A program made the translations under genes and the position numbers. From Gammaproteobacteria bacterium (GTDB lineage Bacteria > Pseudomonadota > Gammaproteobacteria > Xanthomonadales > Rhodanobacteraceae), in contig SHNG01000195.1 of assembly GCA_004295005.1 (NCBI GenBank), positions 1 through 32,945 on the forward strand: 32,945 nucleotides of DNA, given 5' to 3'. Positions 3,852 to 19,268 of this stretch are shown piece after piece (the stretch's first letter is position 1; every line of letters starts with the position of its first letter). The notes under the pieces are model-generated. The model worked only from the letters and a program-made list of their open reading frames with translations. It ran no database searches and was not told the DNA's origin.

Positions 3852-4319
3852 TCAGTCGATCTCGAAGCTTTGCAGGCCCACCGGTACGGCCACGGTAATG
3901 GTGCCGAACATGCCGATGTTGGGCGCACCGTGCACTTCGCAGAAATAGTTGATGGTTTCCACCGTGGTCAGGGTGATCGTCGCCGACCAGTTGGCGGAAC
4001 TGGGCGCGCCATTGCCGCCACCCACACCATCGCAACCGTTGGCGCAGCGAAACTGCGTGGCACCCGAGTTGGATACCACATTGTGGAACCCGGGTGAGGC
4101 ACCGACATTCTGGAAGGTCACCGTGTCGCCGACCTGGGCGCTGGTAACCGCAGGGCTGGTATTCGAGCCGGCATCGGTGAAGGCATTGGACTGGCTGCCG
4201 GAGGAATTCACTCCAACGTTGATGATGTGATTGGTGCTTCCGGCCATGGCCGTCGTCGCCAATGCAAATGGCACAAGGCAGAGCAGCGAATTGCGAAACA
4301 AAGCGGTTGTTGCAGGCAT
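3852..4319 (-). CDS. periplasmic cupredoxin (plastocyanin/azurin-like copper protein)
   Basis: A 155-residue blue-copper protein. The signal peptide ends ATTAMA, cut before GSTNH at about residue 26. The mature domain has the cupredoxin layout: AQVGDTVTFQN early, His79 in PGFHNVV, then Cys127 and His130 in YFCEVH, and Met137 in IGMFGTITV. These are the expected four type-1 copper ligands. The His-Met spacing is six residues, longer than the four of plastocyanin. Cys92 and Cys96 may form an extra disulphide. The start is set by AAGGA six bases upstream (4326-4330). The gene is last in the operon, 38 bases after the diheme cytochrome gene, so it probably shuttles single electrons in the periplasm to or from that cytochrome or the decaheme protein. 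Confidence 0.88.
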   Translation of the reverse strand: MPATTALFRNSLLCLVPFALATTAMAGSTNHIINVGVNSSGSQSNAFTDAGSNTSPAVTSAQVGDTVTFQNVGASPGFHNVVSNSGATQFRCANGCDGVGGGNGAPSSANWSATITLTTVETINYFCEVHGAPNIGMFGTITVAVPVGLQSFEID

Positions 4320-4357
4320 GAGAATTCCTTGATTGGGTTCATGTTGGGTTGTGACAC

Positions 4358-5059
4358 TCACATCGAGTCCCCCGATTCGATCCATTGGGCGAGTGCCTCG
4401 ATGGAGGCATCGTCCAGATTTGCGGCAGCGCCGTTCATCATTCGTGCGCTGCTGGTCAGCGTGTGGCTTCCATCGCGATACGCCTTGAGTCGCTGAATCA
4501 CGAAGTCGGCGTGTTGTCCACGCAGGACTGGAACCAGGCGCCAGCGAATGGCTTTCGCGGCCAACGGATGCCCTTCGGCGTTGCGTCCGTGGCAGCCCTG
4601 GCAGGGCGGAATGCCGCGCGTGGCATCGCCTTCGTTCCAGATGCGGGCGCCTTCGGAGGCATGTGCAGCCGCGCCGTTTGCGGAATCGGAATGATCCGCT
4701 GGCGGCAGCGATGCATACCAAGCGGAAAAATTGCGCAGCTCGGCATCATCCAGATCGGCGAGCAACGCTGTCATCGGCGAATCGGCGCGCGCCTCCTGCT
4801 GGATCGTACGCATTCGCCAATACAGGTATTCGGCATGCTGGCCAGCCAGGTTGGGAAACAGCCCGACCACGGAGATGCCGTTCTGCATGTGGCAGGCCGC
4901 GCACGTCGCCGAACCGGCCTTGCCGGCGGCCGGATCGCCTTGCAGCGCGGGGATGCTGCGCAAGTCCATGAAGGTGTCCGAATCCGCACGTGCCCAAGGG
5001 CAGGCAAGCAGGCCCAGACCAACGAGGCTGAATGCGGCGGCAAGCATGGAGTTCTTCAT
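4358..5059 (-). CDS. diheme c-type cytochrome (c4-like)
   Basis: A 233-residue exported protein with two class-I cytochrome c domains in tandem. The haem motifs are CAACH at residues 53-57 and CQGCH at 153-157. Candidate distal Met ligands are Met96 in DSPMTALLADL and Met207/208 in SARMMNG. The repeated GLFPNLAGQHAEYL and VPVLRGQHADFV segments are typical of cytochrome c4. The signal peptide ends before DSDTF. In other bacteria c4 proteins carry electrons in the periplasm between donor complexes and terminal oxidases. Here the gene starts 11 bases after the outer-membrane barrel gene and precedes a cupredoxin, so a role as electron carrier for the decaheme/barrel conduit is inferred. Confidence 0.88.
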   Translation of the reverse strand: MKNSMLAAAFSLVGLGLLACPWARADSDTFMDLRSIPALQGDPAAGKAGSATCAACHMQNGISVVGLFPNLAGQHAEYLYWRMRTIQQEARADSPMTALLADLDDAELRNFSAWYASLPPADHSDSANGAAAHASEGARIWNEGDATRGIPPCQGCHGRNAEGHPLAAKAIRWRLVPVLRGQHADFVIQRLKAYRDGSHTLTSSARMMNGAAANLDDASIEALAQWIESGDSM

Positions 5060-5070
5060 CGCCGCACTCC

Positions 5071-7629
5071 TTACAGTCGAACCTGCAACAGCATGCCGAG
5101 CAGGTTGTTTCGATAGCCGCGCGGCCCGCCGTCGGTATAGACGCGATGCTCGATCACGCGGGTCTCGTCCATGCCGGCGTAATGCCAGTCCTCGAAGCGA
5201 CCGCGCGCCCAGGTGTCGAACACACGCAGCGACAGGCGCTCACCCAGTGGTACGCGCAATCCCATCGAGATCGCGTTGACGCGATACCGGGTATCCGGAA
5301 AGGCGTTGCCGGGCACGCTGCTGCCATCGGAAAAGTAGGCGAGGGCGGAGGGTGAGGCAAACGCATAATTGTTGCTGCCACGGGCATTGACCCAGGTCCA
5401 GTTGCCATCCCAGGCCACGCGCTTGAGGCTTGCCTTGAAGCTGGCCCCGGCATAGGCATTGCGCTGGCGGTCGCGGTCCGACCACACGGCATCCAGCGGA
5501 TAGGTTGGCCCCCCCAGGCTGGGGTCGGGGTCCAGTGCCTGATCGTTCACGTTGGCCAGTTCAAGCGTGGAAAAATCGCGACCGAAGTACGCGCTGGCCA
5601 TGAAGCGGGGATTGGGCTGCCAGTCCCACTGCACGGTTCCGCCGTGGGTGTCGTAACTCTGCCGGCCGAGGCTTGCGTCATAGTCGTTGCGCATTCCGTT
5701 CAGTGATGCGCCGAGGGTCATGTCATCACCCAAGGCGATCGTGGCGATGAGGCTGAACTTGTCTTCATCGCGGCTGGCCAGGTCGAACTTCCGCAAGGCA
5801 TCCACGGTATGCGCAGGCACGCCGCCTTCGGGTTCGACGAAGCCGGGCAGGGAGCTGGAAAAGGTGAATTCGTACGGGTCGTAGTTGTAGCGATCACCAC
5901 TCTGGCGAAGGTGCGAGAGCTTGGCGCGCAGGGTCAGCCAGTCCAGCGCACGGTTTGTCCAGTTGAGCGAGATGCGACGGAAATCGACCTGCTCGCGCTC
6001 GCGGTTGCCCGGCTCGAATCGATTGACGACGAGATCAGCCCCGATGCTGTTGCCTTCGCTGATGCGCCAGTCGGCACCCAGAGTGGCTTCCGTGGTTTGC
6101 AGGTCGAGTGGAAGATTGCGGATGCGGGTCAGGTTGGACGCACCGGCGCCCGGATACCAGAAGCCCACCTCGCCCGGCACCACGCTGCCTTGCGCGCCGT
6201 TTTCGGACACGTAACCGTACGCGCCGTTGAGCGGATTGAAGGCCAGCCAACTGCCGCGATAGTCCTCGCGGTTGAAGCGCAGGCCGGCACGCACGCTGAG
6301 CGACTCCAGCGGGTGCAGCACGATGCGTCCATCCACAAGGCTGGTGTCAATGCGCATGTCGGCGCGCGTACGCGGCAATGCCGCGTTGCTGTTCCACTGC
6401 GAACAATCGAACAGGAAGGGATTTTGCGGGCCAAGTTGCAGGCTGCCGCCGAGTCCGATGCCGAATACGCCCTGGCAATCGATGGGTGCAATCAGGGAAT
6501 CATCCTGGCTCATGCGCCCGAGCGAGGCAGTCAGTGAAAATTCGCCAGCATTGCCCAGCTTGCGCGTGATCGCCGCCTTGATGTTGTGGTAGTCGTTGTC
6601 CGGTTCGGTGGCAAACTGGCCGCGCTGCAGCGGCGCGGAAACCGCACCGGGAATCACCGGCGACAGCGCGTAGGGCATCTCGTAGTCGAAGCGCGTGTAG
6701 CGATCACGGTAGAACGAACCGGAATAGGCGAAGTCCAATCGCCATTTCGACCCGGCATAGCGCAGGCCGGTGTTGAGATTGACCGTGGCATCATCCACCG
6801 GGCGCAGGGTTTCCAGGATTCCGCCGTTGTCGGGAAATGGGAAGTTGAAGAACATGGCGCCACCGAAAGGGCGCGCACCCTTGCGCTGCTCGTTGCTCAC
6901 GTCCGCATGGGCTGACCAGCGCGGATCGAGGTAGATGCTGAAGCCCAGGCCCTGCTTGGAGCGGTTGACGGAAATCTGGCGTTCGATGGCCGCCCGTGAT
7001 GCCGCGCCCACCTGCCCGGATGTGCTCGCACCGGCTTGCAGCGGATCAACCAGGGTCAGGTGGTTGGAGCCGACGCCGTTCCATATCGAGCGCACGCTGT
7101 CGGACAGTGCATTGGGAAGCTCGCGCAGGAAAGCGTGCACCTTGTAGCTGCCGGCGCGCCCGAACATGGCGTCGAAGTAGGCATCGTCATCGCTGATGCG
7201 ACTGGCGCGCAGCGAGGCGTAGCTGCCATCGCGCGGGCGCAGGAATTCAAGCTGCAGGAGGCCGAGGATGAAACCGTCCTCCCAGTCGGCATAGCGGTTC
7301 CACAGCGCGTTGTCTTCATCGCCACTCACGCCAACGAAACCGATGTCCAGCGAGCCACTGAACAGCCACTCGCCCAGTTTGGTTTGTTCGGGGCTGGCAG
7401 CCGGGCACAGGTACAGGTTGCCACTGGGTGAACGCCGCTGCCGTGGGCTCAGCCAACTGGTGCCGCGCGGATCGAGCGGCCGTGAATCCGCGCCACCGCG
7501 CGGATCAAGAACATTGCCGCGCCACATGTCGACGCCGATGCCGGAATCGGCGTGCGCGATGTTTCCCGCCAGCAAGAGCAGGCCGCCAAGCGGGGCGAGC
7601 AGAACACGATGGCCAGATTGCCTGTGCAT
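5071..7629 (-). CDS. MtrB/PioB-family outer-membrane beta-barrel
   Basis: An 852-residue outer-membrane protein. A signal peptide (cut after AHA, about residue 27) is followed by a long run of alternating hydrophobic/polar strands rich in Tyr, Trp and Arg. The very end (GYRNNLLGMLLQVRL) is a barrel-type terminal strand. Segments such as FSGSLDIGFVGVSGDEDNA and repeated YDTHG/YRVNAISMGLRVPLGE strands match the MtrB/PioB family, whose members sheathe a periplasmic decaheme cytochrome across the outer membrane. Length is near PioB and longer than Shewanella MtrB. I see no N-terminal CxxC pair as in metal-reducing MtrB; the N-terminal region has a single Cys at about residue 75. It starts 15 bases after the decaheme gene, the standard arrangement for a porin-cytochrome pair. 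Confidence 0.88.
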   Translation of the reverse strand: MHRQSGHRVLLAPLGGLLLLAGNIAHADSGIGVDMWRGNVLDPRGGADSRPLDPRGTSWLSPRQRRSPSGNLYLCPAASPEQTKLGEWLFSGSLDIGFVGVSGDEDNALWNRYADWEDGFILGLLQLEFLRPRDGSYASLRASRISDDDAYFDAMFGRAGSYKVHAFLRELPNALSDSVRSIWNGVGSNHLTLVDPLQAGASTSGQVGAASRAAIERQISVNRSKQGLGFSIYLDPRWSAHADVSNEQRKGARPFGGAMFFNFPFPDNGGILETLRPVDDATVNLNTGLRYAGSKWRLDFAYSGSFYRDRYTRFDYEMPYALSPVIPGAVSAPLQRGQFATEPDNDYHNIKAAITRKLGNAGEFSLTASLGRMSQDDSLIAPIDCQGVFGIGLGGSLQLGPQNPFLFDCSQWNSNAALPRTRADMRIDTSLVDGRIVLHPLESLSVRAGLRFNREDYRGSWLAFNPLNGAYGYVSENGAQGSVVPGEVGFWYPGAGASNLTRIRNLPLDLQTTEATLGADWRISEGNSIGADLVVNRFEPGNREREQVDFRRISLNWTNRALDWLTLRAKLSHLRQSGDRYNYDPYEFTFSSSLPGFVEPEGGVPAHTVDALRKFDLASRDEDKFSLIATIALGDDMTLGASLNGMRNDYDASLGRQSYDTHGGTVQWDWQPNPRFMASAYFGRDFSTLELANVNDQALDPDPSLGGPTYPLDAVWSDRDRQRNAYAGASFKASLKRVAWDGNWTWVNARGSNNYAFASPSALAYFSDGSSVPGNAFPDTRYRVNAISMGLRVPLGERLSLRVFDTWARGRFEDWHYAGMDETRVIEHRVYTDGGPRGYRNNLLGMLLQVRL

Positions 7630-7644
7630 GCGGTCTCTCCTTCC

Positions 7645-8712
7645 CTATTCGTGGAAGCGCGGCCCGGAAGGCGCGTTGGAACCGTGGATGTTGGCGTGAC
7701 AGGTGATGCAGGCGCGTCCGATCAGGCGTTCGTCCGGATGCGCTCCGCTGATCAGGGATTGCGGGGTCTGCAAGTCGTTGGGATGGCGCGTACTGCTGTG
7801 GCATTGCTGGCACAGGAACGGCAGCGGCGTTACCAACAGGGCGTGCTGGTTGGAGCCGTGCGGGGTGTGGCAATTGAGGCAGTTCTCGCGCACCGGAGCA
7901 TGCTCGAAGAGGAATGGCCCACGCTTTTCCGCATGACACTGATAGCAGGTTTCGTTGACGGTATTGGTTTTCAGCAGCGGGCTGGTGGTCGAGCCGTGCG
8001 GGTTGTGGCAATCCACGCAGCTCATCTGGCCTTCCGGCAAGGGCATGTGCGAGCGGCGGTGGAATTGCACCAGCACATCCTTGTGGCATTGCGCGCAGGT
8101 GTCGTTGATCGAGCTGCGCGCAAGCAGGCCTTCGCCGGAGAACTTCGCCATCGGGTTGTGGCAGTCGCTGCACGACAACTGGTTGCGTTGGTGCACCGAG
8201 CCGCTCCAGTGATCGCGCGGGCCCCCTTCATGGCAGGCCAGGCAGGTCGCGGTCTGCACGGCAATGGGTGTGCCCGAGGTTTTCGTGAATCCGATGATCA
8301 GGCCCTGGCTGGTCGGATCCTGTGCGTGCAGGGAACCTGCGCCGTGGCAGGTTTCGCAAACCGGTATCGATGCATCGGTCTTGCTGGCTGCGTGCAGTCC
8401 GAGGGCGTGGAAGGTGTGGGTGAAGTGATCGCTTTCCAGTTGATGGCAGGCAATGCACATGCGCTCGCCAACCGGCGTGGCGCCGGCGGCGGCAGGATTC
8501 ACCGCGACGCGGGCATTGGCAAACCCGGCAGCAGGTGAATCAGCCGGCGAGGTCGCTTGTGCGCGGGATGTCGCGGGAAGGAAATGGGCCAGATCCAGTG
8601 CGGCGGTTTGTGCTCCGGCCTGGCCACAAGCAAGCAACATCGCCAGCGCACTCCACAACAGCAGAAGGGTGCGTTGTGTCAGTCCGCGGGTCGCGCTGTT
8701 AGCCGCGCTCAT
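7645..8712 (-). CDS. DmsE/MtrA-type periplasmic decaheme c-type cytochrome
   Basis: A 355-residue exported cytochrome with exactly ten CxxCH motifs, starting near residues 86, 119, 157, 181, 206, 232, 256, 278, 301 and 335. Motifs four to eight lie about 22-26 residues apart, with intervening His residues (for example FHRRSHMP and NPHG) able to act as distal ligands. This is the layout of the MtrA/PioA/MtoA/DmsE family. The signal peptide (TLLLLWSALAMLLACGQAGA) precedes about 50 residues without haem. The gene overlaps the end of the S8 protease gene by 14 bases and is directly followed by the MtrB/PioB barrel gene. It very probably forms the haem wire inside that barrel. The direction of electron flow cannot be read from sequence. 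No DMSO reductase subunits are present, which argues against a strict DmsE role. Confidence 0.92.
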   Translation of the reverse strand: MSAANSATRGLTQRTLLLLWSALAMLLACGQAGAQTAALDLAHFLPATSRAQATSPADSPAAGFANARVAVNPAAAGATPVGERMCIACHQLESDHFTHTFHALGLHAASKTDASIPVCETCHGAGSLHAQDPTSQGLIIGFTKTSGTPIAVQTATCLACHEGGPRDHWSGSVHQRNQLSCSDCHNPMAKFSGEGLLARSSINDTCAQCHKDVLVQFHRRSHMPLPEGQMSCVDCHNPHGSTTSPLLKTNTVNETCYQCHAEKRGPFLFEHAPVRENCLNCHTPHGSNQHALLVTPLPFLCQQCHSSTRHPNDLQTPQSLISGAHPDERLIGRACITCHANIHGSNAPSGPRFHE

Positions 8713-10063
8713 GACCTGCTTCCAGCTGCGGCGAGTCAGTGCAGGATGCGCCCGTCTGCTTCAACTGCAAGCGCAAGGCCATGCATGCATTGATGGCATC
8801 AGCAGGGTTCGTGCTGGACTCCCTGAGCAGGCCCAATGCGCGTTCTGCATCCACGCCAGGCGATGCCTGCAACAGCAACGCGAGGGTGCCGCTGACATGC
8901 GCAGCCGCCAGCGAACTTCCCGAGGCGTAGTCGAAGCTGCCGCCGGGTTCGAGCGTGAGGATATCGGTGCCCGGCGCACTGACCACGCTGGCACCGCCGG
9001 TATTCGACTGATTGATCGTGCGCACACCGATCACGCCATCGAGCGTGCTTGGAAAGCCGTTGAGTGCCGGGTCGGCAGGCAGGGCGGCGACCACGATCTG
9101 GCCGGCCGCCAAGGCATGCCCCAGCAATTCATCGAGCAAGGGATCGCGCGGACCGCCCAGGCTGAGATTGATGACTTCGGCCCTGGACTGAATGGCCGCA
9201 GCCAGCGCCTGGGCGAGGGTGAACGAGTTGCAACGTGCCGAGGCAGACTCTTGCGGTGATGACCAGCAGGCACGGAATGCATGAATCGAAGCAGCCGGTG
9301 CCACGCCGACAATGCCGATGCGATTGTTGGCCAACGCGGCGATCACGCCGGCGACTTCCGTGCCGTGTCGTTCACTGGCCTGCACCGGCACTGCATCACC
9401 CACGAAATCGCGATGTTCAGCGACCTGGCCCTGCAAATCCGGGTGCGTGGCATCCACGGCGGTATCGATGACTGCAACGGAAACGTGCTTGCCGGTTGCC
9501 CATTGCTGGGCGCGTTCCGCGTCGATCACCGAGAAACCGCTTTGCAGTGCGGCATACGGATCATTGAAGCGGCTTGTGCCCGCTGCCGATGCATCGACAG
9601 GTGGAGAATCGACGCTGACCGTGTTGAGGGTCATGTACTCGCGCAGCGGCTCGGCAAGTTTCACGCGCCTGTCTGCGCGCAACCGATCCAGCATTTCCTC
9701 GCGGCTGCTGGATGCCGGCACTTCATACAGCATGCAACGAATTTGCAGCGGCTCTATTGTCCATGCCGCGATCTCGACCAGTCCGTTCGCCTCGGCAATG
9801 CGCCGGGCAGCAGCGCGCGTGCGCTGGCTGCCGGAATAGTCGGGCAGGCCCGCGTAGCCGCGGGGACTGGAACCGATGGCCGCACCCGCATCGGGCTTCT
9901 CGGTGATGGCCACGATGATGCGCCGATCGGTGTTTTCCTCGATGCTGGCGGCGAACGCTCCGACCGAAGCCAGCAACGCCACCAGTGCCGTTGTCCACGG
10001 CCCGATAATTCGGATTGCCCGCCAAAGCGCGCACTCGCTGCGCAGGGTTGCATTCCTCGTCAT
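8699..10063 (-). CDS. subtilisin-like (S8) protein with altered active-site surroundings
   Basis: A 454-residue exported or membrane-anchored S8 protein. It has a hydrophobic segment at about 22-39, a prodomain-like region at about 85-142 (ending RLRADRRVKLAEPL), then the peptidase domain. The triad is present: Asp200 (VAVIDTAVD), His233 (ERHGTEVAGV) and Ser384 (SGSSLAAAHVSG). Two conserved elements differ. The usual AAGN around the oxyanion-hole Asn reads AALP (about 326-329), and the usual GTSxAxPH around the Ser reads GSSLAAAH. It may be a weak, specialised or non-catalytic protease. Its start codon overlaps the anti-sigma stop as ATGA, so it is translationally coupled to the regulator pair. 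Its prodomain-like region resembles the periplasmic end of that anti-sigma factor. A role in signalling or cytochrome-complex maturation is inference. Confidence 0.85.
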   Translation of the reverse strand: MTRNATLRSECALWRAIRIIGPWTTALVALLASVGAFAASIEENTDRRIIVAITEKPDAGAAIGSSPRGYAGLPDYSGSQRTRAAARRIAEANGLVEIAAWTIEPLQIRCMLYEVPASSSREEMLDRLRADRRVKLAEPLREYMTLNTVSVDSPPVDASAAGTSRFNDPYAALQSGFSVIDAERAQQWATGKHVSVAVIDTAVDATHPDLQGQVAEHRDFVGDAVPVQASERHGTEVAGVIAALANNRIGIVGVAPAASIHAFRACWSSPQESASARCNSFTLAQALAAAIQSRAEVINLSLGGPRDPLLDELLGHALAAGQIVVAALPADPALNGFPSTLDGVIGVRTINQSNTGGASVVSAPGTDILTLEPGGSFDYASGSSLAAAHVSGTLALLLQASPGVDAERALGLLRESSTNPADAINACMALRLQLKQTGASCTDSPQLEAGHERG

Positions 10064-10791
10064 GGCGACCTTGCCGCGTCGCCGATGGGTTCGGCCAGCA
10101 GTACGCCCGGGTTTGCACGCAGGCGCTGCAATGTGTCGTTGAGGCTCGCCTTCCTGTCCCCGGATTGCGCGCCCGCTCCGCCGTTTGCCGCCAGGGTGAG
10201 TACGGTCGCTGTCGCATTGCTGCCTGCGATGTGCAAACCCGCTTCAGCCAACAAGGCTTGCAATTCGCCCATGCCAAGCGAGGGTGAAGGCACCAGGCGA
10301 ATGATGCCCTCGGCTGCCTCGGGAGCGGCGGTGCTCAGGGTGGTGTAGGCGGCGGGCTGCTCAGGATTGGATCCTTGCGCAAACCAGAGTGTGCCAAGCA
10401 CGGACAGGCCCAGTGCCTCGACCACCACCATGGCTGCCAGCATGCGCATCAAGCGCCGTTGCCGATGCACTCGACGCGCCGTGCGTTGCGTCTCTTCGCT
10501 GCTGCCCAGGTGCAAGGGAATCTGTGCGAAGTCGCGCCCCTCGTCTTCCGCGTCGATTCGGGCCATGAGCCGCGCCAGCGAAGCCGAGCTATCGCCCACC
10601 GGCGCATGCGCATCCACCGTCATGCCACCCTGGATACGCAACTGGAAATCAAACTCGTCGCGGCAATCGACGCAGCGATCCAGGTGGCGATGCGCAATTT
10701 CGCGCTGCTCCTCGTCAAGGGTGCCGTTGACCATCCAGGGAATCAGGTCCCAGATCTGCCGATGCGCGGGGTCGTAGGGATTCATGCTCAT
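10060..10791 (-). CDS. transmembrane zinc-finger anti-sigma factor with prodomain-like periplasmic end
   Basis: A 243-residue membrane protein. The N-terminal cytoplasmic part carries the zinc anti-sigma motif H36-x3-C40-x2-C43 (HLDRCVDC), as in zf-HC2/ZAS anti-sigma factors. One transmembrane helix lies at about 116-138 and a periplasmic domain of about 100 residues follows. The start ATG at 10791 overlaps the sigma-factor stop (ATGA), which fixes it; upstream in-frame codons lie inside the sigma gene. The periplasmic end (about 176-236, including TLQRLRANPGVLLAEPIG) resembles the prodomain-like region of the adjacent S8 protein. By family knowledge the cytoplasmic part should hold the ECF sigma factor inactive until an envelope signal releases it. 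Confidence 0.87.
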   Translation of the reverse strand: MSMNPYDPAHRQIWDLIPWMVNGTLDEEQREIAHRHLDRCVDCRDEFDFQLRIQGGMTVDAHAPVGDSSASLARLMARIDAEDEGRDFAQIPLHLGSSEETQRTARRVHRQRRLMRMLAAMVVVEALGLSVLGTLWFAQGSNPEQPAAYTTLSTAAPEAAEGIIRLVPSPSLGMGELQALLAEAGLHIAGSNATATVLTLAANGGAGAQSGDRKASLNDTLQRLRANPGVLLAEPIGDAARSP

Positions 10792-11435
10792 TGTGGATTG
10801 GCCTCGTTGCGGGTGTCGCCGCCCAGGGCGGTGAGGCTGCTGCGCAGGCGCACGCGGGCGTGGAACATGCGCGCCTTCACCGTGCCCACCGGGCAATTCA
10901 TGATCTCGGCAATCTCCTCGCAGGATTGGCCAAGGTAGTAAGCCAGCTCGATGGTCATGCGCTGGTCGGGCGGCAACAAGCGCAGGCCTGCGCCCACCCA
11001 TTGCTGTACCTCGGTCAGTTGCGAATGGTTGTGCTGTTCGGGCAACCCGGCGGGATCATCGGCATCCTCATCCATGCCGGTAGCGGCACCGATGTCGAAG
11101 GGCTGGTCGCGCAGGGCCTTCATCAAGGTGCGGTAGGCGATGGCGATGATCCAACTGCGCGGCTTGGCCTCCTCGCGAAAACGCGAGGCGCCCCGCCACA
11201 CCGCCCACAGGGTGCTGTTGACCACTTCATCGACCAGGTCACGTCGAGAGGTGTTGCGGATCAGGAATCGGGCGAGCAGTCCATGGTAGCTTGTGTAAAG
11301 TTGTTCGAATGCCCGCCGGTCGCCGCGCGCTATCGCCTTGATCCAGACGAGATCCTGTGCGTCCGAATCACGGGTGTCGGCAGGGCCACGATTTTCCGCT
11401 TCGGATTTCATGCGCAATCCAGCACCCCAGGGCAT
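10788..11435 (-). CDS. ECF-type RNA polymerase sigma factor
   Basis: A 215-residue sigma-70 family ECF factor. Region 2 is at about residues 40-108 (AFEQLYTSYHGLLARFL, with RFREEAKPRSWIIAIAYR as the core and promoter-melting part). Region 4 is at about 150-205 (LLPPDQRMTIELAYYLGQ, then CEEIAEIMNCPVGTVKARMFHAR as the -35-reading helix-turn-helix). An acidic linker joins them. Two starts are possible, 11435 or 11411 (MKSEAENRG); neither has a strong ribosome-binding site. It heads the operon running to the cupredoxin gene and overlaps the anti-sigma gene by four bases, so it is likely autoregulated and the probable activator of the electron-transfer genes. This is inference from order. Confidence 0.9.
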   Translation of the reverse strand: MPWGAGLRMKSEAENRGPADTRDSDAQDLVWIKAIARGDRRAFEQLYTSYHGLLARFLIRNTSRRDLVDEVVNSTLWAVWRGASRFREEAKPRSWIIAIAYRTLMKALRDQPFDIGAATGMDEDADDPAGLPEQHNHSQLTEVQQWVGAGLRLLPPDQRMTIELAYYLGQSCEEIAEIMNCPVGTVKARMFHARVRLRSSLTALGGDTRNEANPQ

Positions 11436-11456
11436 AGGCCAACGATGTATGTACCC

Positions 11457-11478
11457 GGTTGTAACGCAAAAGGTTGCC
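11457..11478 (-). promoter_or_regulatory. candidate promoter element upstream of the sigma-factor operon
   Basis: Read on the - strand, the 22 bases begin GGCAACC and end CAACC, with a 10-base A/T-richer gap between the repeats. A GGxAAC-like block is a common -35 for ECF sigma factors. It lies 22 bases upstream of the longer sigma start and 46 bases upstream of the shorter one. No convincing -10 is visible. It also overlaps the TorF-like gene's 5' region, so it could serve either side. Confidence 0.25.
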
Positions 11479-11504: not shown

Positions 11505-12290
11505 TTGATCACGGCTTGTCCTGCGCGGCGTGCTCCCGGTTCTGTGCAACCCACGCGGTTCGCCTGGGCATGCGCCTTGCACCTGGCCCTGGTTGTGGCG
11601 CCATTGGCGTCTTCGGCACAGGCGCAAACCTGGGGCGGGGCGCTTGGCGCAAGCTCGGAGAACATCTATCGCGGCATCGGGCAAAGCCGGGGCGACCCCA
11701 GCGTGTTTGCCGACCTGCATGTGGGACTGGGCGGAAACTGGCTGCTGGGGATCAATGCCGCCAGCGTGCACCCGCAAGACCGGCCCGCGGATAGCCAATT
11801 CAGCCTCTATGCCGATCGGCGTTGGCGCTTCGGCACGGATTGGTCGGCCAAACTGGGATTCGTGCATTACGACAGCCTGCACAGCGAAAACCACGATGGC
11901 CTGCGTTACGACGAACTGAACGCGGCGATCGCCTGGCGCGGGCGCTGGGTGTCCACCCTGGCCTGGTCACCGCGCGTCAACAACGCCTACCTGGATGTGA
12001 TCAGCGACGACGTCGCCTGGCTGTGGGCCGAAACCGCCTGGCACCAACCGATAGGCGATCACCTGAGTCTGGATGCGGGCATTGGATTCGGCCATCCGGT
12101 ACATGCGCCACCGCATGACTACCACTACGCCAATCTCGGCGTGACCTTCGCTGTCGCCAGTGCTTCCCTGAGCGTCGGTCGCATCTGGGCCAGCGAACGC
12201 AAGTACAGCTACGAGTTGTTCAACTTCCCCTACGAACTGACCCTGCCCTCGCGCCAACGCTGGGTGGCATCGGTGATGTGGTTGTTCTGA
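11505..12290 (+). CDS. TorF-like outer-membrane beta-barrel protein (putative porin)
   Basis: About 261 residues. A signal peptide (RFAWACALHLALVVAPLASSAQA, cut before QTWGG) leads into a small beta-barrel with the family's opening GALGASSENIYRGIGQSRGDPSVFADLHVG and the terminal strand RQRWVASVMWLF. This matches the TorF/Gcw_chp group of putative porins. I prefer the TTG at 11505 because AGGA (11494-11497) sits seven bases upstream and the signal peptide is then of normal length. The only in-frame ATG, at 11445, would add about 20 residues to an already long leader. The gene is divergent from the ECF/electron-transfer operon and may share its control region. The solute passed is unknown. Confidence 0.8.
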   Translation: MITACPARRAPGSVQPTRFAWACALHLALVVAPLASSAQAQTWGGALGASSENIYRGIGQSRGDPSVFADLHVGLGGNWLLGINAASVHPQDRPADSQFSLYADRRWRFGTDWSAKLGFVHYDSLHSENHDGLRYDELNAAIAWRGRWVSTLAWSPRVNNAYLDVISDDVAWLWAETAWHQPIGDHLSLDAGIGFGHPVHAPPHDYHYANLGVTFAVASASLSVGRIWASERKYSYELFNFPYELTLPSRQRWVASVMWLF

Positions 12291-13118: not shown

Positions 13119-14924
13119 TCAACGAAAATGCGCCTCGATTTCCTCCAGGGTTTTGCCCTTGGTTTCCGGCAGCAGGAAGCTGGCGACGAGGAAGTAGGCC
13201 AGGGTGCAGCCGGCCCAGAAGATGAACATGCTGGCGTAGCCGTGGCGGCCGACCATGGGCAGAAACACCGCGGCAATCGAGGTGGAGACGAACTGGTTGA
13301 TCACCAGTGCGATGCTCATGCCGTTGGAGCGGATGCGGGTCGGCATCAGCTCCGAGAGTGCCAGCCATACGCACACGCCGGGGCCAACGGCGAAGAAGGC
13401 GACAAAGAACAACAGGCAGATGGTCACCACCCAGCCGTGGGTGGGCGAGGGCACCGCACCGAGGCTGGCGCGCTCGAGTTCCAGCGGTGCCTGCGCGGCG
13501 CTGGCGGGGTCGGGAAACGGATTGAGGTGCAAGGTGCGGAAGAATGCGCCGATCACGCTGTCCGGTTGCACCGCGGCGTCGCGCCGGATATGCAATTCGA
13601 CGTCACCGACCGCGTCGCTGCGCAGGGACCGCACGTTGCTGAAGCCGCCGTAGCGGTAGGCCACGGTCAACTGTTGAGGTTGCGCGGTGTCGATCACGCC
13701 CAGGCGCCGCCATTGTTCGGCATCCAGGCGAAGGGTCAGCGCGTCAGCGTTGATCTGTTGCGCCAGAATCGGGCGTACATCGACCTGTCCGCGTTCGGCC
13801 TTCACGAACAATGTGGACAAGGCCAGCAAGGCGACCACGATGCCGCCGCTGCCCAGCATGAGCAGAAACTTGCGGCCCTTGCGATCAACCAGTACCAGCG
13901 CCACCACGGTCATCAGCGCATTGACCATTTTCACGCTGACATCGCCCCAGTTGGCGACGGCACCGGGCAGGCCGGCATGATTGAGGATGTTGACCACGTA
14001 GGCGAGGATCGAATTCATGCCGGTGGCCTGGGTCAGCGCGAGGATGACGCAGGCCAACAGGAACGGCCGCAGATAGCGGCGACTGAGCAGGCGATCGCGT
14101 TCGTGCGTCACGCCATGATCGGACGGCGCTTGCTCCTGCATCTGCTGCAAGGTGGATTCCACTTGTGCCATTGGCAGCGTGCTTTGCAATGCCGCGCGCG
14201 CCTGGCGCAGGCGACCGCGCCGCGCAAGCCAGCGGGGAGATTCGTGCAGCAACAGGCCGCCAAGGGTGAACACCAGGCCAGGCAGCAGGCTGCTCCAGAA
14301 GATCATGCGCCAGGCGCGATCCTTGACTGCGAACAGGGCCTGCTGCTGTTCCGCGGGCGAGAGTTGGCGAACCGACTCGGTGGCGACATCCACCACATGC
14401 GCCTGGTGCAGGCCGATCAATGCAGCGACCACCAAACCGATGGTGAGCAGCAACTGGAACATTGCCATGCCGCGTCCGCGCCGTTCCGGGCTGAGCACTT
14501 CCGCCAGATACAGCGGCACTGCCACGCCGATCAATCCGCCACTGACGCCTTGCAACAGGCGACCGAGCAACAAGGGCAGGTAACCGGAGGCCAGCGCCAT
14601 GATCGGAATGCTGGCGGTGAACAGTGCGCCGCTGAGCACCATCACGCTGCGTCGGCCAATCAGATCCGACAGCGCGCCGGCAAACAGTGCCGACAGCACG
14701 CTGCCCAGCAACACCGCGGCAACCACGAAGCTCAGTTGCTGGGTGGTCAACTGCCAACTTGTGCTGGCGGTGGCTTCGAGATAGGGCAGGGCGCCTGCGA
14801 TGATGCCGAGGTCGATGCCGTACAGCAGTCCACCCATGCCGGCGATGAACAGCAGGTAGCGCAGGTGCCAGCGCGGATCCGTCGGCTCGGCATGCGGGTT
14901 TGTCGCGGCGGCGGCCTGGCTCAT
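13119..14924 (-). CDS. MFS sugar-porter permease with a large periplasmic insertion
   Basis: A 601-residue inner-membrane transporter of the sugar porter branch of MFS. It has GLLYGIDLGIIAGALPYLE in helix 1, DLIGRRSVMVLSG in loop 2-3, SPERRGRGMAMFQ after helix 4, LLHESPRWLARRGR in the middle loop, and a second RKGRK loop. About 600 residues is well above the usual 450-500. The excess is a non-membrane stretch at about residues 376-497 between transmembrane helices 9 and 10, on the periplasmic side by topology. The gene ends the sugar operon and follows the deacetylase gene closely. A GalNAc, galactose or related sugar is the likely cargo, by analogy with the AgaP permease of Shewanella. The cargo is inference. 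Confidence 0.87.
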   Translation of the reverse strand: MSQAAAATNPHAEPTDPRWHLRYLLFIAGMGGLLYGIDLGIIAGALPYLEATASTSWQLTTQQLSFVVAAVLLGSVLSALFAGALSDLIGRRSVMVLSGALFTASIPIMALASGYLPLLLGRLLQGVSGGLIGVAVPLYLAEVLSPERRGRGMAMFQLLLTIGLVVAALIGLHQAHVVDVATESVRQLSPAEQQQALFAVKDRAWRMIFWSSLLPGLVFTLGGLLLHESPRWLARRGRLRQARAALQSTLPMAQVESTLQQMQEQAPSDHGVTHERDRLLSRRYLRPFLLACVILALTQATGMNSILAYVVNILNHAGLPGAVANWGDVSVKMVNALMTVVALVLVDRKGRKFLLMLGSGGIVVALLALSTLFVKAERGQVDVRPILAQQINADALTLRLDAEQWRRLGVIDTAQPQQLTVAYRYGGFSNVRSLRSDAVGDVELHIRRDAAVQPDSVIGAFFRTLHLNPFPDPASAAQAPLELERASLGAVPSPTHGWVVTICLLFFVAFFAVGPGVCVWLALSELMPTRIRSNGMSIALVINQFVSTSIAAVFLPMVGRHGYASMFIFWAGCTLAYFLVASFLLPETKGKTLEEIEAHFR

Positions 14925-14966
14925 CGTGGGATTCCTGTGGCGGGAAGGGGCGGGTGGGTTGGCGGA

Positions 14967-16079
14967 TCAATGCGGCGCAATCGGTTCGCCTTCGACAAAC
15001 ACCTGGCGGATGGCGAGATTGGAATCGAGCAGCACCAGATCGGCAAAGGCTCCCGGTTCGATGCGACCGCGATCCTGCACACCGAGATAATCCGCCGGAT
15101 AGCGTGACACGCGGTTGCTCGCGTCGGCCAGGTCGAGGCCGATGGAGACCAGGTTGCGCAGGGCCTGATCCATGGTCAATGCACTGCCGGCCAGCGAGCT
15201 GCCGTCGGCCAGGCGCACGCAACCCAGGCACTTGTGCACGCGCTGCACGCCGAGTGCGTATTCGCCATCGGGCATGCCGGTGGCGGCGGTGGCGTCGGTG
15301 ATGGCATAGAGCTTGGGAATCGCGCGCAGCGCGGCGCGGATCATGCCCGCATGCACATGCGCAAGGTCGGGAATCAGCTCGGCATACTCGGCATGTGCGA
15401 GCGCTGCCGCGGCGATGCCCGGTTCGCGATGGTGGGTGCCGCTCATGCCGTTGAACAGGTGGGTGAAGCCACTCGCACCGGCGCGCAAGGCCGCCACGCC
15501 GTCATCGTAGGTACCTGCGCTGTGGCCAACCTGCACGCGGATGCCCAGGGCGGTGAGCGCGGGAATCAGCGCGGTGTGCTCGCCGATTTCCGGGGCCAGG
15601 GTCAGCACCCTGATCGGCGCGATCGCGTGCAGGCGTTTCACCTGTTCGAGCGTCGCCTCGACCACCAGCGGCGGTTGTGCGCCGAGTCGTTGCGCACTCA
15701 GATACGGCCCTTCGAGGTGCACGCCGAGCACGCGTGCGCAGCCTGGTGCGCGGGAGTCGATGGCCTTCGACAAGCCGCGCAGCGCGTGCACGATGTCGTC
15801 CTCGCTCGCCGTCATGGTGGTGCCGAGCATGGCCGTGGTGCCGTGCCGCACGTGCGTGCGCGCGACCGTGTGCGCGGCCTCGCCACCATCCATGATGTCC
15901 ACTGCGGATGCGCCGTGCACATGCAGGTCGATGAAGCCGGGCAGGATCCACGGGGCGTCGTCGGTCACCACGCCGGGGTCGGCATGGATCTCGAGGATGC
16001 GGCTGTCGAATCCGATCTCGCCGTGCACCACGCCGCCCGGGGTCAGGATGCGGCCGCGAAGTCTTCCGCCAGTCTTCAT
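14967..16079 (-). CDS. nagA: N-acetylglucosamine/galactosamine-6-phosphate deacetylase
   Basis: A 370-residue amidohydrolase that removes acetate from an N-acetylhexosamine 6-phosphate. Visible motifs are PGFIDLHVHG (His53, His55), HLEGPY (Glu123), GHSAGT (His186), HLFNGMSGTHHREPG (His207) and ITDATAATG (Asp262, catalytic). These cover the metal site and the sugar-phosphate site of the NagA/AgaA family. The ATG at 16079 has AAGGG six bases upstream and starts 19 bases after the beta-galactosidase stop; an earlier in-frame ATG would overlap that gene. Given AgaS and GatZ homologues in the operon, the in vivo substrate is more likely GalNAc-6-phosphate (AgaA role) than GlcNAc-6-phosphate, but sequence alone does not separate these. 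Confidence 0.9.
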   Translation of the reverse strand: MKTGGRLRGRILTPGGVVHGEIGFDSRILEIHADPGVVTDDAPWILPGFIDLHVHGASAVDIMDGGEAAHTVARTHVRHGTTAMLGTTMTASEDDIVHALRGLSKAIDSRAPGCARVLGVHLEGPYLSAQRLGAQPPLVVEATLEQVKRLHAIAPIRVLTLAPEIGEHTALIPALTALGIRVQVGHSAGTYDDGVAALRAGASGFTHLFNGMSGTHHREPGIAAAALAHAEYAELIPDLAHVHAGMIRAALRAIPKLYAITDATAATGMPDGEYALGVQRVHKCLGCVRLADGSSLAGSALTMDQALRNLVSIGLDLADASNRVSRYPADYLGVQDRGRIEPGAFADLVLLDSNLAIRQVFVEGEPIAPH

Positions 16080-16098
16080 TTCAGCCCTTCGCGCATGT

Positions 16099-17964
16099 TC
16101 ATTGGCCCGCTGGAGGATCGGCAACCTGGTAAACCGGATCGGTGATGCCTCCGATGCTGCGTTTGGCGGCACCGCCTTCCACATCCAGCACCACCACCTC
16201 GTTGCGGCCGGATCTCAGCCACGGCGCAGGCAGATACAGAGCCTGCTGCGGACCGATCTTCCAGTAGCGGCCAAGATGATGTCCATTCACCCACACATGA
16301 CCCTTGCCCCAGCCACGCAGGTCGAGAAAGCTGTCGCCCGGCTTTTTCAGCTTGAAGCTGCCACGCCAGAAACCCGGTTCGTCGGTGGCCGTATCGGTAT
16401 TGCCAAACGCAAGCCCGGAAAGATCCGCCAGCGGCAGCGCATACATCGTCCAGTTGCGCAGCTCGGCATCATCGAGCTTCACCGCACGCGTGATGCCCTT
16501 GTACTCGGTTGCCAGCGGCTGATCAAAGTTGATTCGCCCCATGTTCTCGACCAGCAAATCGAGCGTGGCACCGGCTTTCGCGTTGATTGAAAGCGTGTGC
16601 CGGTTCTCGCGACGATCAAGCGTTCCTTGTGCCACGCCATCCACCAGCACGCTGGCGTAGTCGCGCACCTCTTGAACCTGCAACTTGCCACCAGTCGATG
16701 GCAATCGGGTGCGATACCACACGAACCCGTAGTTCTGGCCGAGTGCCTCCATGGTCTTCGGCAATACCGACAGCACCGGTTTCGACAAGATCGGCAAGGC
16801 ATCGCGCAAGCTCACCGATTCGGCCAGCTCGAAGCGCGGAATCGACACCGTCCTTGCATCGGCAGGCATCGGCGGCAGCGTTTCGCCTGCATCCAGATGC
16901 TTGCCGATCACGGCACGGATGGCGTGGTACTTCGGTGTCAGGCGTCCGGCCTCGTCGATGGGCGCGTCGTAGTCGTAGCTGGTGGTGTCCGCGCTGTAGC
17001 TGCCATCAAGCTTGCCGTTGGCGCCGGCGAGGTAGCCGAAGCTGGTGCCGCCATGCGCCATGTACAAATTGAAGGAAACGCCATTGGCGAGAAACCACTC
17101 GATGGCACCGGCAACCTTGTCGGTGTCGCGTGAGGTGTGCGGCTTGCCCCAGGCATCGAACCAGCCATCCCAGTATTCGCCAACCATGCGCGGTACGCCG
17201 GTGCGGAACCGGGCGAACTCCTCGAATGAGGATTGCGCATCGTTGGCATCGCCATCGAAGTTGATCACGCTGGTCACGCCCGGCAAGGTGCCACCTTCAA
17301 GCAGGCGCAGGTGTGGTCCATCCGAGGTGAACAGCGGCGTGTCGAATCCGGCATCGATGACCTGCTGCTTCACTGCCGCCATGTAGTCGCGGTCGTTGCC
17401 GTAACTGCCGTACTCGTTCTCCACCTGGATCATCAGGATTGGTCCGCCCCGCGTGGACAGCAGCGGTGCCAATTCTTCGCCGACACGCTTCAGATAGCGG
17501 GCGCTGGCGGCCATGTAGCGCGGATCCATGCTGCGCACACGCAGTCCAGGCGTGCGCAGCAGCCAGGCCGGATAGCCGCCGAAGTCGAGCTCGGTGCAGA
17601 TGTAGGGGCCGGGACGGACGATCACTTCAAGGCCTTCTTCCTGCGCCGTGCGCACGAACGCGGCGATGTCGAGGTTGCCGCTGAAATCGAATTGGCCGGG
17701 TTCGGGCTCGTGCAGGTTCCAGAACACGTAGGTGGTGATGGTGTTGAGACCCATCGCGCGCAGCTTGTGCAGGCGGTCGCGCCAGTATTCGCGTGGCACG
17801 CGCGGATAGTGGATCTCGCCGGAGCGGATCAGGAAAGGCTTGCCATCGCGCAGGAAATGTTCGCCTTGCACGGAAAAACGGGGCGTTTGCGCAAGGGCGC
17901 AGCAGGCCATCGCGATCAGCACCGTCGAAAGGATTCCAAGGGCAGCGTGTTTCATGGCATTCAT
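16099..17964 (-). CDS. exported GH35 beta-galactosidase
   Basis: A 621-residue glycoside hydrolase family 35 enzyme with a signal peptide (cut after about residue 25, ALA before QTPRF). The catalytic domain starts FSVQGEHFLRDGKPFLIRSGEIHYPRVP. The acid/base Glu184 is in QVENEYGSYG, and the nucleophile is probably Glu263 in GEYWDGWFDAWG. Two C-terminal beta-sandwich regions follow, the last with FLDLRGWGKGHVWVNGHHLGRYW. It should release terminal beta-linked galactose in the periplasm or outside. Its start overlaps the stop of the upstream GatZ gene (ATGA); a second ATG at 17955 is possible. Within a GalNAc-type operon a Gal-beta-GalNAc disaccharide would be a sensible substrate (inference). 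Confidence 0.92.
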   Translation of the reverse strand: MNAMKHAALGILSTVLIAMACCALAQTPRFSVQGEHFLRDGKPFLIRSGEIHYPRVPREYWRDRLHKLRAMGLNTITTYVFWNLHEPEPGQFDFSGNLDIAAFVRTAQEEGLEVIVRPGPYICTELDFGGYPAWLLRTPGLRVRSMDPRYMAASARYLKRVGEELAPLLSTRGGPILMIQVENEYGSYGNDRDYMAAVKQQVIDAGFDTPLFTSDGPHLRLLEGGTLPGVTSVINFDGDANDAQSSFEEFARFRTGVPRMVGEYWDGWFDAWGKPHTSRDTDKVAGAIEWFLANGVSFNLYMAHGGTSFGYLAGANGKLDGSYSADTTSYDYDAPIDEAGRLTPKYHAIRAVIGKHLDAGETLPPMPADARTVSIPRFELAESVSLRDALPILSKPVLSVLPKTMEALGQNYGFVWYRTRLPSTGGKLQVQEVRDYASVLVDGVAQGTLDRRENRHTLSINAKAGATLDLLVENMGRINFDQPLATEYKGITRAVKLDDAELRNWTMYALPLADLSGLAFGNTDTATDEPGFWRGSFKLKKPGDSFLDLRGWGKGHVWVNGHHLGRYWKIGPQQALYLPAPWLRSGRNEVVVLDVEGGAAKRSIGGITDPVYQVADPPAGQ

Positions 17965-19244
17965 GCCTCGTTGCTGGCGCAGGCACGCGCGTATTCGGCC
18001 AGGCGCAAACCGATCTTGTGCTGCACCAGGGCCAGCGGATCCACCGACAATCGACCGGCCAGCACTTCGGCCACCTGTTCGGGCAGGTATTGGCTGATCA
18101 GCGTGGCCGGTGGCGCGTGTCGGCGCAGGTTGTCGATCAGCAATTGCACGGCGGCAGCAACCCTTGCATCGCCCCAGTAATAACGACAGCGGTCGCTGAG
18201 TGCATAGGCACGCAACAGGCGCAGCGATGGTTCATCACCGCTGTAATGGCCTTGCCAGTATTTCGGATTCGCGCGCATGGCCTCATCGAGCACGTCGATC
18301 AGGCGCGAACGCTGGTCTTGCGGGATCAATTCATCCTCGATCCGGCTCAGTGCAAACACCGCCTCGCGAAAGGCGAACGTCGCCGCCGGTCCCACCTTGA
18401 GGATGGCGAAGTGATCGCGCACCAGCGCATGCAGCGAGGCTTCGCTCTGGTAATCGGTGGAATGCGCCTCGAACACGATGCGCGGTTGCGTTTCGAGGAA
18501 GCTCGAGAGCGCCTTGGCCTTGGCTGGATCGTAGTGCTGTACCGAGCTGTGATCGAAATCCACGCCCGGTTGCACCACCATCGCGATCACCCGTTGCCAG
18601 GCATCAGCGAGATCGGGCACATCGAAAGTGCGGCGATGGATTTCCAGCGTGGTCGCGGCGGCCTCGGGCGTGGTCACCGCCACCCCGCTGCCGAGTGAAC
18701 TCTCGCCGCCGGGTATCGGTACTTCGGTGCCGATCACGTACACCGGCGCAGGCAATCCGGCATCGCGCGCGGCGGCCTCGGCAATGCGCGCAAGCTCGGC
18801 GGAGCGTGCCGCCACGATTGCATCCGGCAAGGGACTGGGATCATCCGCGCAGGACATGCTGCAATCCAGATGGATCTTGTGGAAACCGGCACTGGCATAG
18901 GCATGGATCAATGCACGCGCATTCTGCATTGCCAATTCGGCAGGCTGCTTCTGCCAGGCATTCGGACCGAGGTGATCGCCGCCAAGGATCAGGCGTTCAC
19001 GCGGGAATCCGTGGGCATCGGCCAGGCCTTCCACGTAAGCGCGAAACTGCGCCGGAGTCATGCCGGTGTAGCCGCCAAACTGATCGACCTGGTTGGAGGT
19101 GGCTTCGATCAGCAAGGGCGTGTGATAACGCCGGGCAACCTGCATGGCGGCGAGCAACACCTGCTCGTTGCTGCAACACACGCTGTAGAGACCGCTGCGC
19201 TCGCCCTTGCGATGGGCCTGGATGAGTGATTGCACGGCGGACAT
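17961..19244 (-). CDS. kbaZ: GatZ/KbaZ-family protein (tagatose-bisphosphate aldolase accessory subunit or tagatose-6-phosphate epimerase)
   Basis: A 427-residue full-length member of the GatZ/KbaZ/AgaZ family. Hallmarks include YSVCCSNEQVLLAAMQ, LIEATSNQVDQFGGYTGM, LILGGDHLGPN, FHKIHLDCSMSC, YVIGTEVPIPGGE and KYWQGHYSGDEP. E. coli members are named as non-catalytic partners of the GatY/KbaY aldolase. No such catalytic subunit is in this operon, nor a tagatose-6-phosphate kinase. Some family members have been reported as 4-epimerases interconverting tagatose 6-phosphate and fructose 6-phosphate, which would close the pathway in one step. It starts 24 bases after the ROK kinase gene and overlaps the GH35 gene by four bases. 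The family call is secure; the reaction is not. Confidence 0.88.
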   Translation of the reverse strand: MSAVQSLIQAHRKGERSGLYSVCCSNEQVLLAAMQVARRYHTPLLIEATSNQVDQFGGYTGMTPAQFRAYVEGLADAHGFPRERLILGGDHLGPNAWQKQPAELAMQNARALIHAYASAGFHKIHLDCSMSCADDPSPLPDAIVAARSAELARIAEAAARDAGLPAPVYVIGTEVPIPGGESSLGSGVAVTTPEAAATTLEIHRRTFDVPDLADAWQRVIAMVVQPGVDFDHSSVQHYDPAKAKALSSFLETQPRIVFEAHSTDYQSEASLHALVRDHFAILKVGPAATFAFREAVFALSRIEDELIPQDQRSRLIDVLDEAMRANPKYWQGHYSGDEPSLRLLRAYALSDRCRYYWGDARVAAAVQLLIDNLRRHAPPATLISQYLPEQVAEVLAGRLSVDPLALVQHKIGLRLAEYARACASNEA

Positions 19245-19268
19245 GCTGGAGTCTCCGGTCGAAAATGT

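Follow-up and report, generated by a model that had tools for sequence, protein, structure and literature searches.

Extracellular electron conduits of the MtrAB, MtoAB and PioAB kind pair a decaheme cytochrome of the MtrA family with an outer-membrane barrel of the MtrB/PioB type; the MtrAB complex of Shewanella baltica is available as PDB entry 6R2Q (PMC10654088, in part). Cyc2 is an unrelated conduit and an iron-oxidase family, and what it does where iron oxidation is not known is described as an open question, with homologues outside the known iron oxidisers awaiting tests (PMC8406198, in part). Here, we analysed a stretch of 32,945 nucleotides (hereafter the window; contig SHNG01000195.1 of assembly GCA_004295005.1, a gammaproteobacterium of the Rhodanobacteraceae), in which a seven-gene operon joins a conduit of the first kind to a switch consisting of an extracytoplasmic function (ECF) sigma factor, an anti-sigma factor and an S8 protease. 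The operon probably encodes an ECF-controlled conduit for extracellular electron uptake, with Fe(II) as the likeliest donor, that feeds high-potential carriers and oxidases. The surprising part is that, judged from gene neighbourhoods, one ECF/anti-sigma/S8 switch is common to two unrelated conduits, Cyc2 and MtrAB.

The conduit operon

Open reading frames (ORFs) and family profiles place all seven genes, from the sigma factor to the cupredoxin, on the minus strand between 11435 and 3852. The initial annotation had described the same single-strand set (sigma, anti-sigma, S8, decaheme, barrel, c4 and cupredoxin), and profile or PDB matches confirmed each member. The ten CxxCH motifs that it counted in one exported protein were recovered in the MtrA homologue of 355 amino acids. 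The ATGA overlaps that it noted were also found, with 4 bases between the sigma and anti-sigma genes and 4 between the anti-sigma and S8 genes; the S8 and mtrA genes overlap by 14 bases. The features are:

11448..11476, minus strand: predicted ECF promoter (CAACCTT, 14 bases, GGTACATA), a motif common to 24 training loci
10788..11411, minus strand: ECF sigma factor (Sigma70_r2 and r4_2; TIGR02937 above cut-off; longest ORF from 11435)
10060..10791, minus strand: anti-sigma factor (zf-HC2, 25 bits), with a zinc-finger N-domain, a long hydrophobic helix and a periplasmic domain resembling an S8 prodomain
8699..10063, minus strand: exported S8 (subtilisin-type) protease (PF00082, 113 bits; D, H and S motifs identified by eye)
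7645..8712, minus strand: decaheme cytochrome of the MtrA/MtoA/PioA family (10 CxxCH, TIGR03508, 6r2q_A)
5071..7629, minus strand: outer-membrane barrel of the MtrB/PioB type, long type, 852 amino acids (PF11854, 279.3 bits; 6r2q_B, 3.1e-22)
4358..5059, minus strand: exported diheme cytochrome c4 (2 CxxCH; PDB cytochrome c4 at 4.8e-25)
3852..4319, minus strand: exported type-1 copper cupredoxin (PF00127; C-terminal tail VPVGLQSFEID)
11559..12290 (start approximate), plus strand: divergent, TorF/Gcw_chp-like putative porin (PF09694, 20.6 bits, below the cut-off of 24)

The promoter motif ends at 11448, which makes the ATG at 11411 a likelier start of the sigma gene than 11435. The cupredoxin start was placed at the ATG at 4319.

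The core of the conduit is of the MtrAB/MtoAB/PioAB kind, with the gene of a decaheme MtrA-family cytochrome adjoining that of an MtrB/PioB barrel. The MtrA homologue scored 246.8 bits against TIGR03508, above the cut-off, and matched PDB chain 6r2q_A at 3.4e-58 (the PDB label there reads 'Cystathionine beta-synthase'). The diheme protein is identified as a cytochrome c4 by its two CxxCH class I domains and a full-length match to a known c4. The cupredoxin is assigned to the type-1 copper proteins by its His, Cys, His and Met ligands (H77, C125, H128 and M135), which were invariant in an alignment of six cupredoxin homologues. Its PF00127 score of 21.8 bits lies barely above the cut-off of 21.2, a weak family score by which it is plastocyanin-like, and no test made here supported a rusticyanin identity. 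Its sequence gave no match among PDB sequences at E 0.01, and no fold claim was drawn from its poor model (predicted local distance difference test, pLDDT, 60.6). A pair of additional conserved cysteines (FRCxxNGCDG) is common to the window cupredoxin and its aligned homologues, as is a C-terminal tail resembling VPVxLQSFxID.

Relatives of the conduit

Three sets of loci were compared, namely 65 from the window's barrel clade, 30 other related ones and 21 for contrast; 2, 1 and 0 more, respectively, had been dropped for incomplete mtrA and mtrB. Genes were sought within 9 kb, or as far as the contig reached, and duplicates of other loci were dropped. Judged by their titles, the clade loci are mostly from Xanthomonadales, with four exceptions from Burkholderiales (L022), Rhodospirillales (L023), Burkholderiaceae (L029) and Pseudomonadales (L032). 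The contrast set comprised 20 loci picked from weaker matches plus a Photobacterium MtrCAB locus (L082); 18 of its barrels are 656-771 amino acids long, and the frames of L113-L115 are 874-1057 amino acids long. The reference L082 came from plasmid searches, which gave three short DNA matches and, by protein, this one MtrCAB.

A c4 gene was found in 64 of the 65 clade loci and directly follows the barrel gene in 55. The sole locus without it is L022, where the contig stops inside the barrel gene. Neither MtrC nor NapC occurred in the clade (0/65 each). Near the core, the clade loci carried azurin (18), a high-potential iron-sulfur protein (HiPIP; 7), a cupredoxin (4), a cupredoxin plus HiPIP (6) or none of these (30); hence 35 of the 65 have azurin, HiPIP or a window-type cupredoxin beside the core. 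The azurin and HiPIP calls were verified on one protein each (TIGR02695, 167.9 bits; PF01355, 85.4 bits). The 30 other related loci included five with c4 and six with azurin, again with no MtrC or NapC, and the 21 contrast loci included seven with MtrC, seven with NapC, three with a PdsA-like gene, two with a cupredoxin-like gene and none with c4. An MtrC label in L016 was rejected as an over-extended mtrA ORF and corrected by hand.

In sequenced genomes, the seven-gene order from sigma factor to cupredoxin, which the initial annotation could not match to a described system, recurs in L002, L005 and L006. This recurrence, together with the presence of mtrA-mtrB with c4 in 64 of the 65 loci, places the gene set beyond chance. 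In five further loci (L007, L015, L017, L019 and L132) the cupredoxin precedes c4 and HiPIP follows. A barrel tree (FastTree, with long branches flagged) separated the 21 contrast rows from the 94 others by one fully supported branch, with no named MtoA, PioA or DmsE sequence among the rows. Adjacency of the ECF gene on this tree requires a minimum of four changes relative to the other groups, and six among the non-contrast rows.

Several arrangements outside the seven-gene order were also observed. In loci L024-L052 (Pseudoxanthomonas, Stenotrophomonas, Luteimonas and their kin), and in a few more, mtrA-mtrB-c4 lies among the ccm genes of cytochrome maturation, often together with azurin. The ccmF profile matched in 19 of the 65 clade loci, and a TetR-like gene (cluster c10, read by eye) was found in 14 loci. 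L020 and L026 hold mtrA-mtrB-c4 in two consecutive copies within one locus. In Verrucomicrobia, mostly Opitutae (L056, L058, L068, L072, L074 and L078), an azurin-like gene follows mtrA-mtrB, a pairing with a copper protein beyond the Proteobacteria.

A switch shared with Cyc2

An order-wide survey covered 299 genomes, which are related, so that its counts are not independent events. The anti-sigma profile matched in 69 of them, in 61 above 190 bits. Among these 61 module genomes, the sigma/anti-sigma/S8 module stands beside a Cyc2 homologue in 40, beside a long mtrAB (within 15 kb) in 9 and beside neither in 12. Cyc2 or long mtrAB is held by 60 of the 61 and both by six; the genome with neither (G275) belongs to the window's genus. 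Conversely, 26 of the 33 genomes with long mtrAB also have the module, and close Cyc2 homologues (>600 bits) occur in 40 of the 299 genomes, with an anti-sigma gene 2.5-9.2 kb away in all 40. We had considered the module private to mtrAB, an idea rejected once the order-wide search gave 61 genomes, mostly beside Cyc2. The initial annotation's view that the operon is under its own ECF switch therefore stands in part: the promoter motif described below supports a switch, but the switch is not private to the operon.

We took 20 module loci away from mtrAB, representing 19 of 52 such genomes plus the weaker G283. All 20 have the S8 gene, 19 the sigma gene and 17 the porin gene, and in two (L151 and L155) a cupredoxin gene follows. 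Directly upstream in eight lies the gene of a roughly 450-residue protein with a single CxxCH. In all eight aligned rows the CxxCH is preceded by AxPx[FY]ARQT (five F, three Y), and according to Keffer et al. 2021 the motif AXPXFAR[Q/K][T/Y] before CXXCH is unique to Cyc2 (PMC8406198, in part). By this motif, the proteins are assigned to Cyc2 homologues. They have the motif before the single CXXCH and PXL after it; a barrel is suggested by their length and end. Scanned representatives gave no Pfam or NCBIfam match.

The divergent porin gene is part of the conserved neighbourhood of the sigma gene, as the GCW profile matched in 12 of the 13 clade loci with a sigma gene nearby. In a scan of the window, the porin gene had no promoter site of its own.

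Promoter sites across the genomes

Upstream of the sigma gene, most module loci have the motif CAACC[TA]T, 13-14 bases, GGYA[CT]NYA. The exact pattern was chosen after the sequences had been seen, so that the contrast between its 61 matches in the fetched loci and a mean of 0.67 after shuffling is post hoc. We trained a position weight matrix (PWM) on 24 sigma-gene sites, themselves chosen by the pattern, and tested it on other genes. No position among 1,653,936 (both strands, 52 control loci) reached a PWM score of 18. The window site scored 32.3, and other window positions scored at most 8.2, except its 1-base neighbour. Among 144 rows for mtrA, 11 had an upstream score of at least 16; they represent 7 distinct genomes, compared to 0.04 rows expected from the control loci. 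The same threshold was reached upstream of the cupredoxin gene in 7 of 28 rows (one a duplicate).

The exact pattern occurred at 25 sites in ten genomes, compared to 5 for the reversed pattern. These sites lie before sigma genes (9), mtrA (3), cupredoxin genes (3), cyc2 or divergent cyc2/mtrA promoters (4) and elsewhere (6). For instance, the only three exact sites in the genome of G164 stand before mtrA, a cupredoxin gene and the sigma gene, with mtrA 1.65 Mb from the sigma gene. Similarly, the three sites of G293 are spread over three contigs, with one each before mtrA, the sigma gene and a cupredoxin gene; the second mtrAB copy of this genome (L016) scored only 10.0. Among nine genomes examined in which module and mtrAB lie apart, four (G164, G293, G124 and G036) have a site before mtrA; G119 and G216 are further genomes of this type outside the nine. 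In the window's own genome (3.47 Mb) the exact pattern matches once, before the sigma gene; its reversed control likewise gives one match. With this single site, the seven-gene operon would be the target there.

At the Cyc2 loci, a pattern site lies within 1.2 kb of the open frame in five of eight and within the 510 bases scanned in one of eight. Possibly, cyc2 is the second gene of its operon, because the four other sites sit about 0.7-0.8 kb before its likely start.

Next to cyc2 or mtrA, the motif also faces a set of divergent genes in eight loci (L159 at 11805, L161 at 3558, L162 at 3452, L163 at 2907, L169 at 4180, L121 at 6816, L142 at 6581 and L144 at 6605). This set includes a NeuD-like acetyltransferase of 221 amino acids, preceded in L159 by a WxcM/FdtA-like cupin gene (names read by eye). 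The NeuD-like/cupin set suggests that surface sugars might be altered along with the conduit.

How the switch may work

The periplasmic domain of the anti-sigma factor resembles the N-terminal region of the S8 protease. With hhalign the two matched at a probability of 78, E 1.8e-5 and a score of 32.9 (34 pairs), compared to a maximum of 16.3 in 100 column shuffles and at most 15.4 for other parts of the S8 protein and the reversed region; BLAST alone gave E 0.027. In the model of the anti-sigma domain the elements run beta-alpha-beta-beta-alpha-beta, which is the order of subtilisin propeptides and a common fold. A fold search listed 1scj_B, 1spb_P and 2z57_B (probability 0.91-0.98) among other folds of the same topology, none at E 0.001 or below, and is supportive only.

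We propose S8 proteolysis of the anti-sigma factor as the switch. The anti-sigma factor would keep the sigma factor bound at the inner membrane. The protease would recognise the prodomain-like periplasmic domain and, on a surface or redox signal, probably cut the anti-sigma factor; the released sigma factor would then read its own promoter, hence the whole operon. Our literature search found no paper on an anti-sigma/S8 pair with a shared prodomain-like domain.

A broader proposal is tentative, and we give it slightly less than an even chance. Under it, extracellular electron uptake in much of the Xanthomonadales would be controlled by a single dedicated ECF/anti-sigma/S8 regulon. Cyc2 and MtrAB would be exchangeable in one regulatory slot, a regulon-specific cupredoxin family would act downstream, and the anti-sigma factor would carry a copy of the protease prodomain as bait for sigma release.

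Direction of electron flow

The genes, their conservation, the module common to Cyc2 and the promoter sites are direct observations; electron direction, donor and the proteolytic switch are inferred. In the uptake reading, decaheme MtrA inside the long MtrB barrel would conduct electrons inward across the outer membrane, and the diheme c4 and the cupredoxin would carry them through the periplasm to high-potential acceptors, for example the haem-copper oxidases of the genome. The donor would probably be Fe(II), dissolved or solid, offering extra energy or protection to an apparent heterotroph.

Inward flow is favoured because the same switch adjoins Cyc2, an iron-oxidase family. Azurin, HiPIP, c4 and cupredoxins, moreover, are high-potential carriers suited to handing electrons on to oxidases. 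HiPIP potentials range from +0.05 to +0.5 V (PMC10654088, in part). An independent hint comes from He et al. 2017, who reported a Cyc2 homologue in Rhodanobacter from an iron-oxidising enrichment (PMC5566968, in part).

The initial annotation had argued that the lack of an MtrC-type surface cytochrome and of CymA favours uptake over metal reduction; the module beside Cyc2 adds to this reading, and high-potential carriers are frequent beside the barrel clade. The lack itself holds in the own genome, in the 65 clade loci and in a set of 15 genomes (the own genome and 14 hand-picked). Within this set the MtrC/OmcA model gave no match above cut-off, its single weak match (G012) being the mtrA gene. 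For the NapC/CymA type, the own genome had none, and the single match among the 15 (G014) was likewise mtrA. Haem-copper oxidase is present in all 15, the own genome included. The own genome is Dokdonella-like (3.47 Mb, 197 contigs, 87% complete) and has one MtrB/PioB match; the nearest relative of its decaheme protein among the 80 loci kept is from a Dokdonella metagenome assembly (94% identity). A search with eight Cyc2-like proteins found no Cyc2 homologue in the own genome.

Several observations weigh against uptake under this switch. Loci of the Pseudoxanthomonas/Stenotrophomonas type place mtrAB within ccm genes and have other regulator genes ahead of it, and the module is absent from seven of the 33 genomes with long mtrAB. 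In five of the nine module-apart genomes (G045, G053, G159, G228 and G309) mtrA has no site at threshold, and the one exact site of G026 lies elsewhere, its sigma gene having a one-mismatch version only. Furthermore, the spacing from motif to CxxCH in our Cyc2 homologues is 3 residues, compared to 5 in the published wording, and the function of Cyc2 Cluster 3 is called most uncertain (both PMC8406198, in part), a cluster to which the homologues here may or may not belong. The direction of MtrAB-type systems is described as not readable from sequence alone, and the net direction as not inferable for most MtrCAB carriers (PMC8805035, in part). A PdsA-like diheme gene stands beside the real MtrCAB of L082, and hence a diheme carrier alone is no proof of uptake. 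Finally, absences in the own genome are provisional because the assembly is 87% complete.

The best-surviving alternative concerns purpose. Uptake might serve as defence, in that the regulon would keep Fe(II) or another reduced metal out of the cell by oxidising it at the surface, with little energy gain. It overlaps with uptake for use, and we consider it unlikely, at perhaps one chance in four. ECF/anti-sigma switches are often envelope-stress circuits, which counts for defence, as does the finding of RuBisCO in none of the 15 genomes. An iron-stress role of pioABC has also been mentioned (PMC10654088, in part). Against this, the carrier chain of c4, copper protein and oxidases points to electrons being used.

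Alternatively, the conduit might work outward, like MtrCAB, and pass electrons from respiration to minerals or humics. The MtrAB core is indeed homologous to a reductive system, and the window's c4 matches PdsA weakly (37.4 bits against a cut-off of 330), the family to which the diheme of L082 is related. Yet MtrC and NapC, each found in a third of the contrast loci, are missing from the clade, and across the order the MtrC model scored above cut-off in 25 of the 299 genomes, all in families f8 and f10 and none in the window's family f1. The carriers are of high-potential types and the module also stands beside Cyc2, which makes outward flow improbable.

Electrons might also leave to an extracellular enzyme partner, such as a copper oxygenase or peroxidase, of a polymer degrader. 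The window does hold carbohydrate genes elsewhere, but we saw no further conserved enzyme family beside the core in the compared loci, where most neighbours lack a family assignment, and no such enzyme was among the genes read after promoter sites; we regard this as very unlikely. A DmsEF-like conduit feeding an extracellular molybdenum reductase is the least credible. The NCBI family name 'DmsE family decaheme' speaks for it, although that model covers the MtrA family at large. Against it, the DmsA model had no match above cut-off in the 15 genomes, and the weaker molybdoprotein matches of the own genome lie on contig C52, not on the window's C33, with none in the operon.

Electron uptake towards oxidases remains the preferred reading, and it suggests that ordinary members of this order may take up electrons from their surroundings. 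A switch shared with MtrAB would give the question of Cyc2 a genetic handle in culturable relatives, consisting of one sigma gene and one promoter motif. It would also suggest a rule for the direction of MtrAB conduits: inward with a long barrel, c4 and copper or HiPIP carriers, and outward with a shorter barrel, MtrC and NapC.

Elsewhere in the window, minus-strand genes at 13119-21351 (transporter, amidohydrolase, GH35, GatZ/KbaZ-like, ROK and SIS) look like a cluster for amino-sugar or galactoside utilisation. At 23956-25122 on the plus strand, a Fic/DOC-domain protein gene adjoins a dihydrouridine synthase gene.

Comparison with known systems

Our literature search found no description of the window operon or of an ECF module common to Cyc2 and MtrAB. 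The MtoAB(D)-CymA/ImoA system of Sideroxydans lithotrophicus ES-1 resembles it in having a decaheme cytochrome, a barrel and small periplasmic carriers (PMC12016527, PMC13390432, both in part). The mto system, however, uses the CymA/ImoA tetraheme and monoheme carriers, whereas the window has c4 and a cupredoxin, no NapC-type gene that we could find, and an ECF/anti-sigma/S8 switch within the operon.

PioABC of Rhodopseudomonas palustris TIE-1 likewise combines a decaheme cytochrome, a barrel and a high-potential carrier in one operon. Its third gene encodes a HiPIP, which is absent from the window operon, where the carriers are a copper protein and c4, and is found beside the core in 13 of the 65 related loci. 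PioA also has a long haem-free N-terminal region (residues 1-270; PMC10654088, in part) that is absent here, with about 85 residues before the first haem motif.

The pathway of Acidithiobacillus, Cyc2 - Cyc1(c4) - rusticyanin, shares with the window the passage through c4 and a cupredoxin to an oxidase, and in relatives the switch stands beside a Cyc2 homologue. In contrast, the outer-membrane part in the window is MtrAB, its genome gave no Cyc2 match, and its cupredoxin is not assigned to rusticyanin. MtrCAB, with Photobacterium sp. DA100 as our reference, has homologous MtrA and MtrB, but the window operon is without MtrC and CymA and its barrel falls on the other, fully supported side of the tree. 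DmsEFABGH differs by its DmsA molybdoenzyme, absent above cut-off from the 15 genomes. The conduit itself is of a known kind (Mto/Pio), of which its carrier set, its barrel clade and its shared switch make it a new form.

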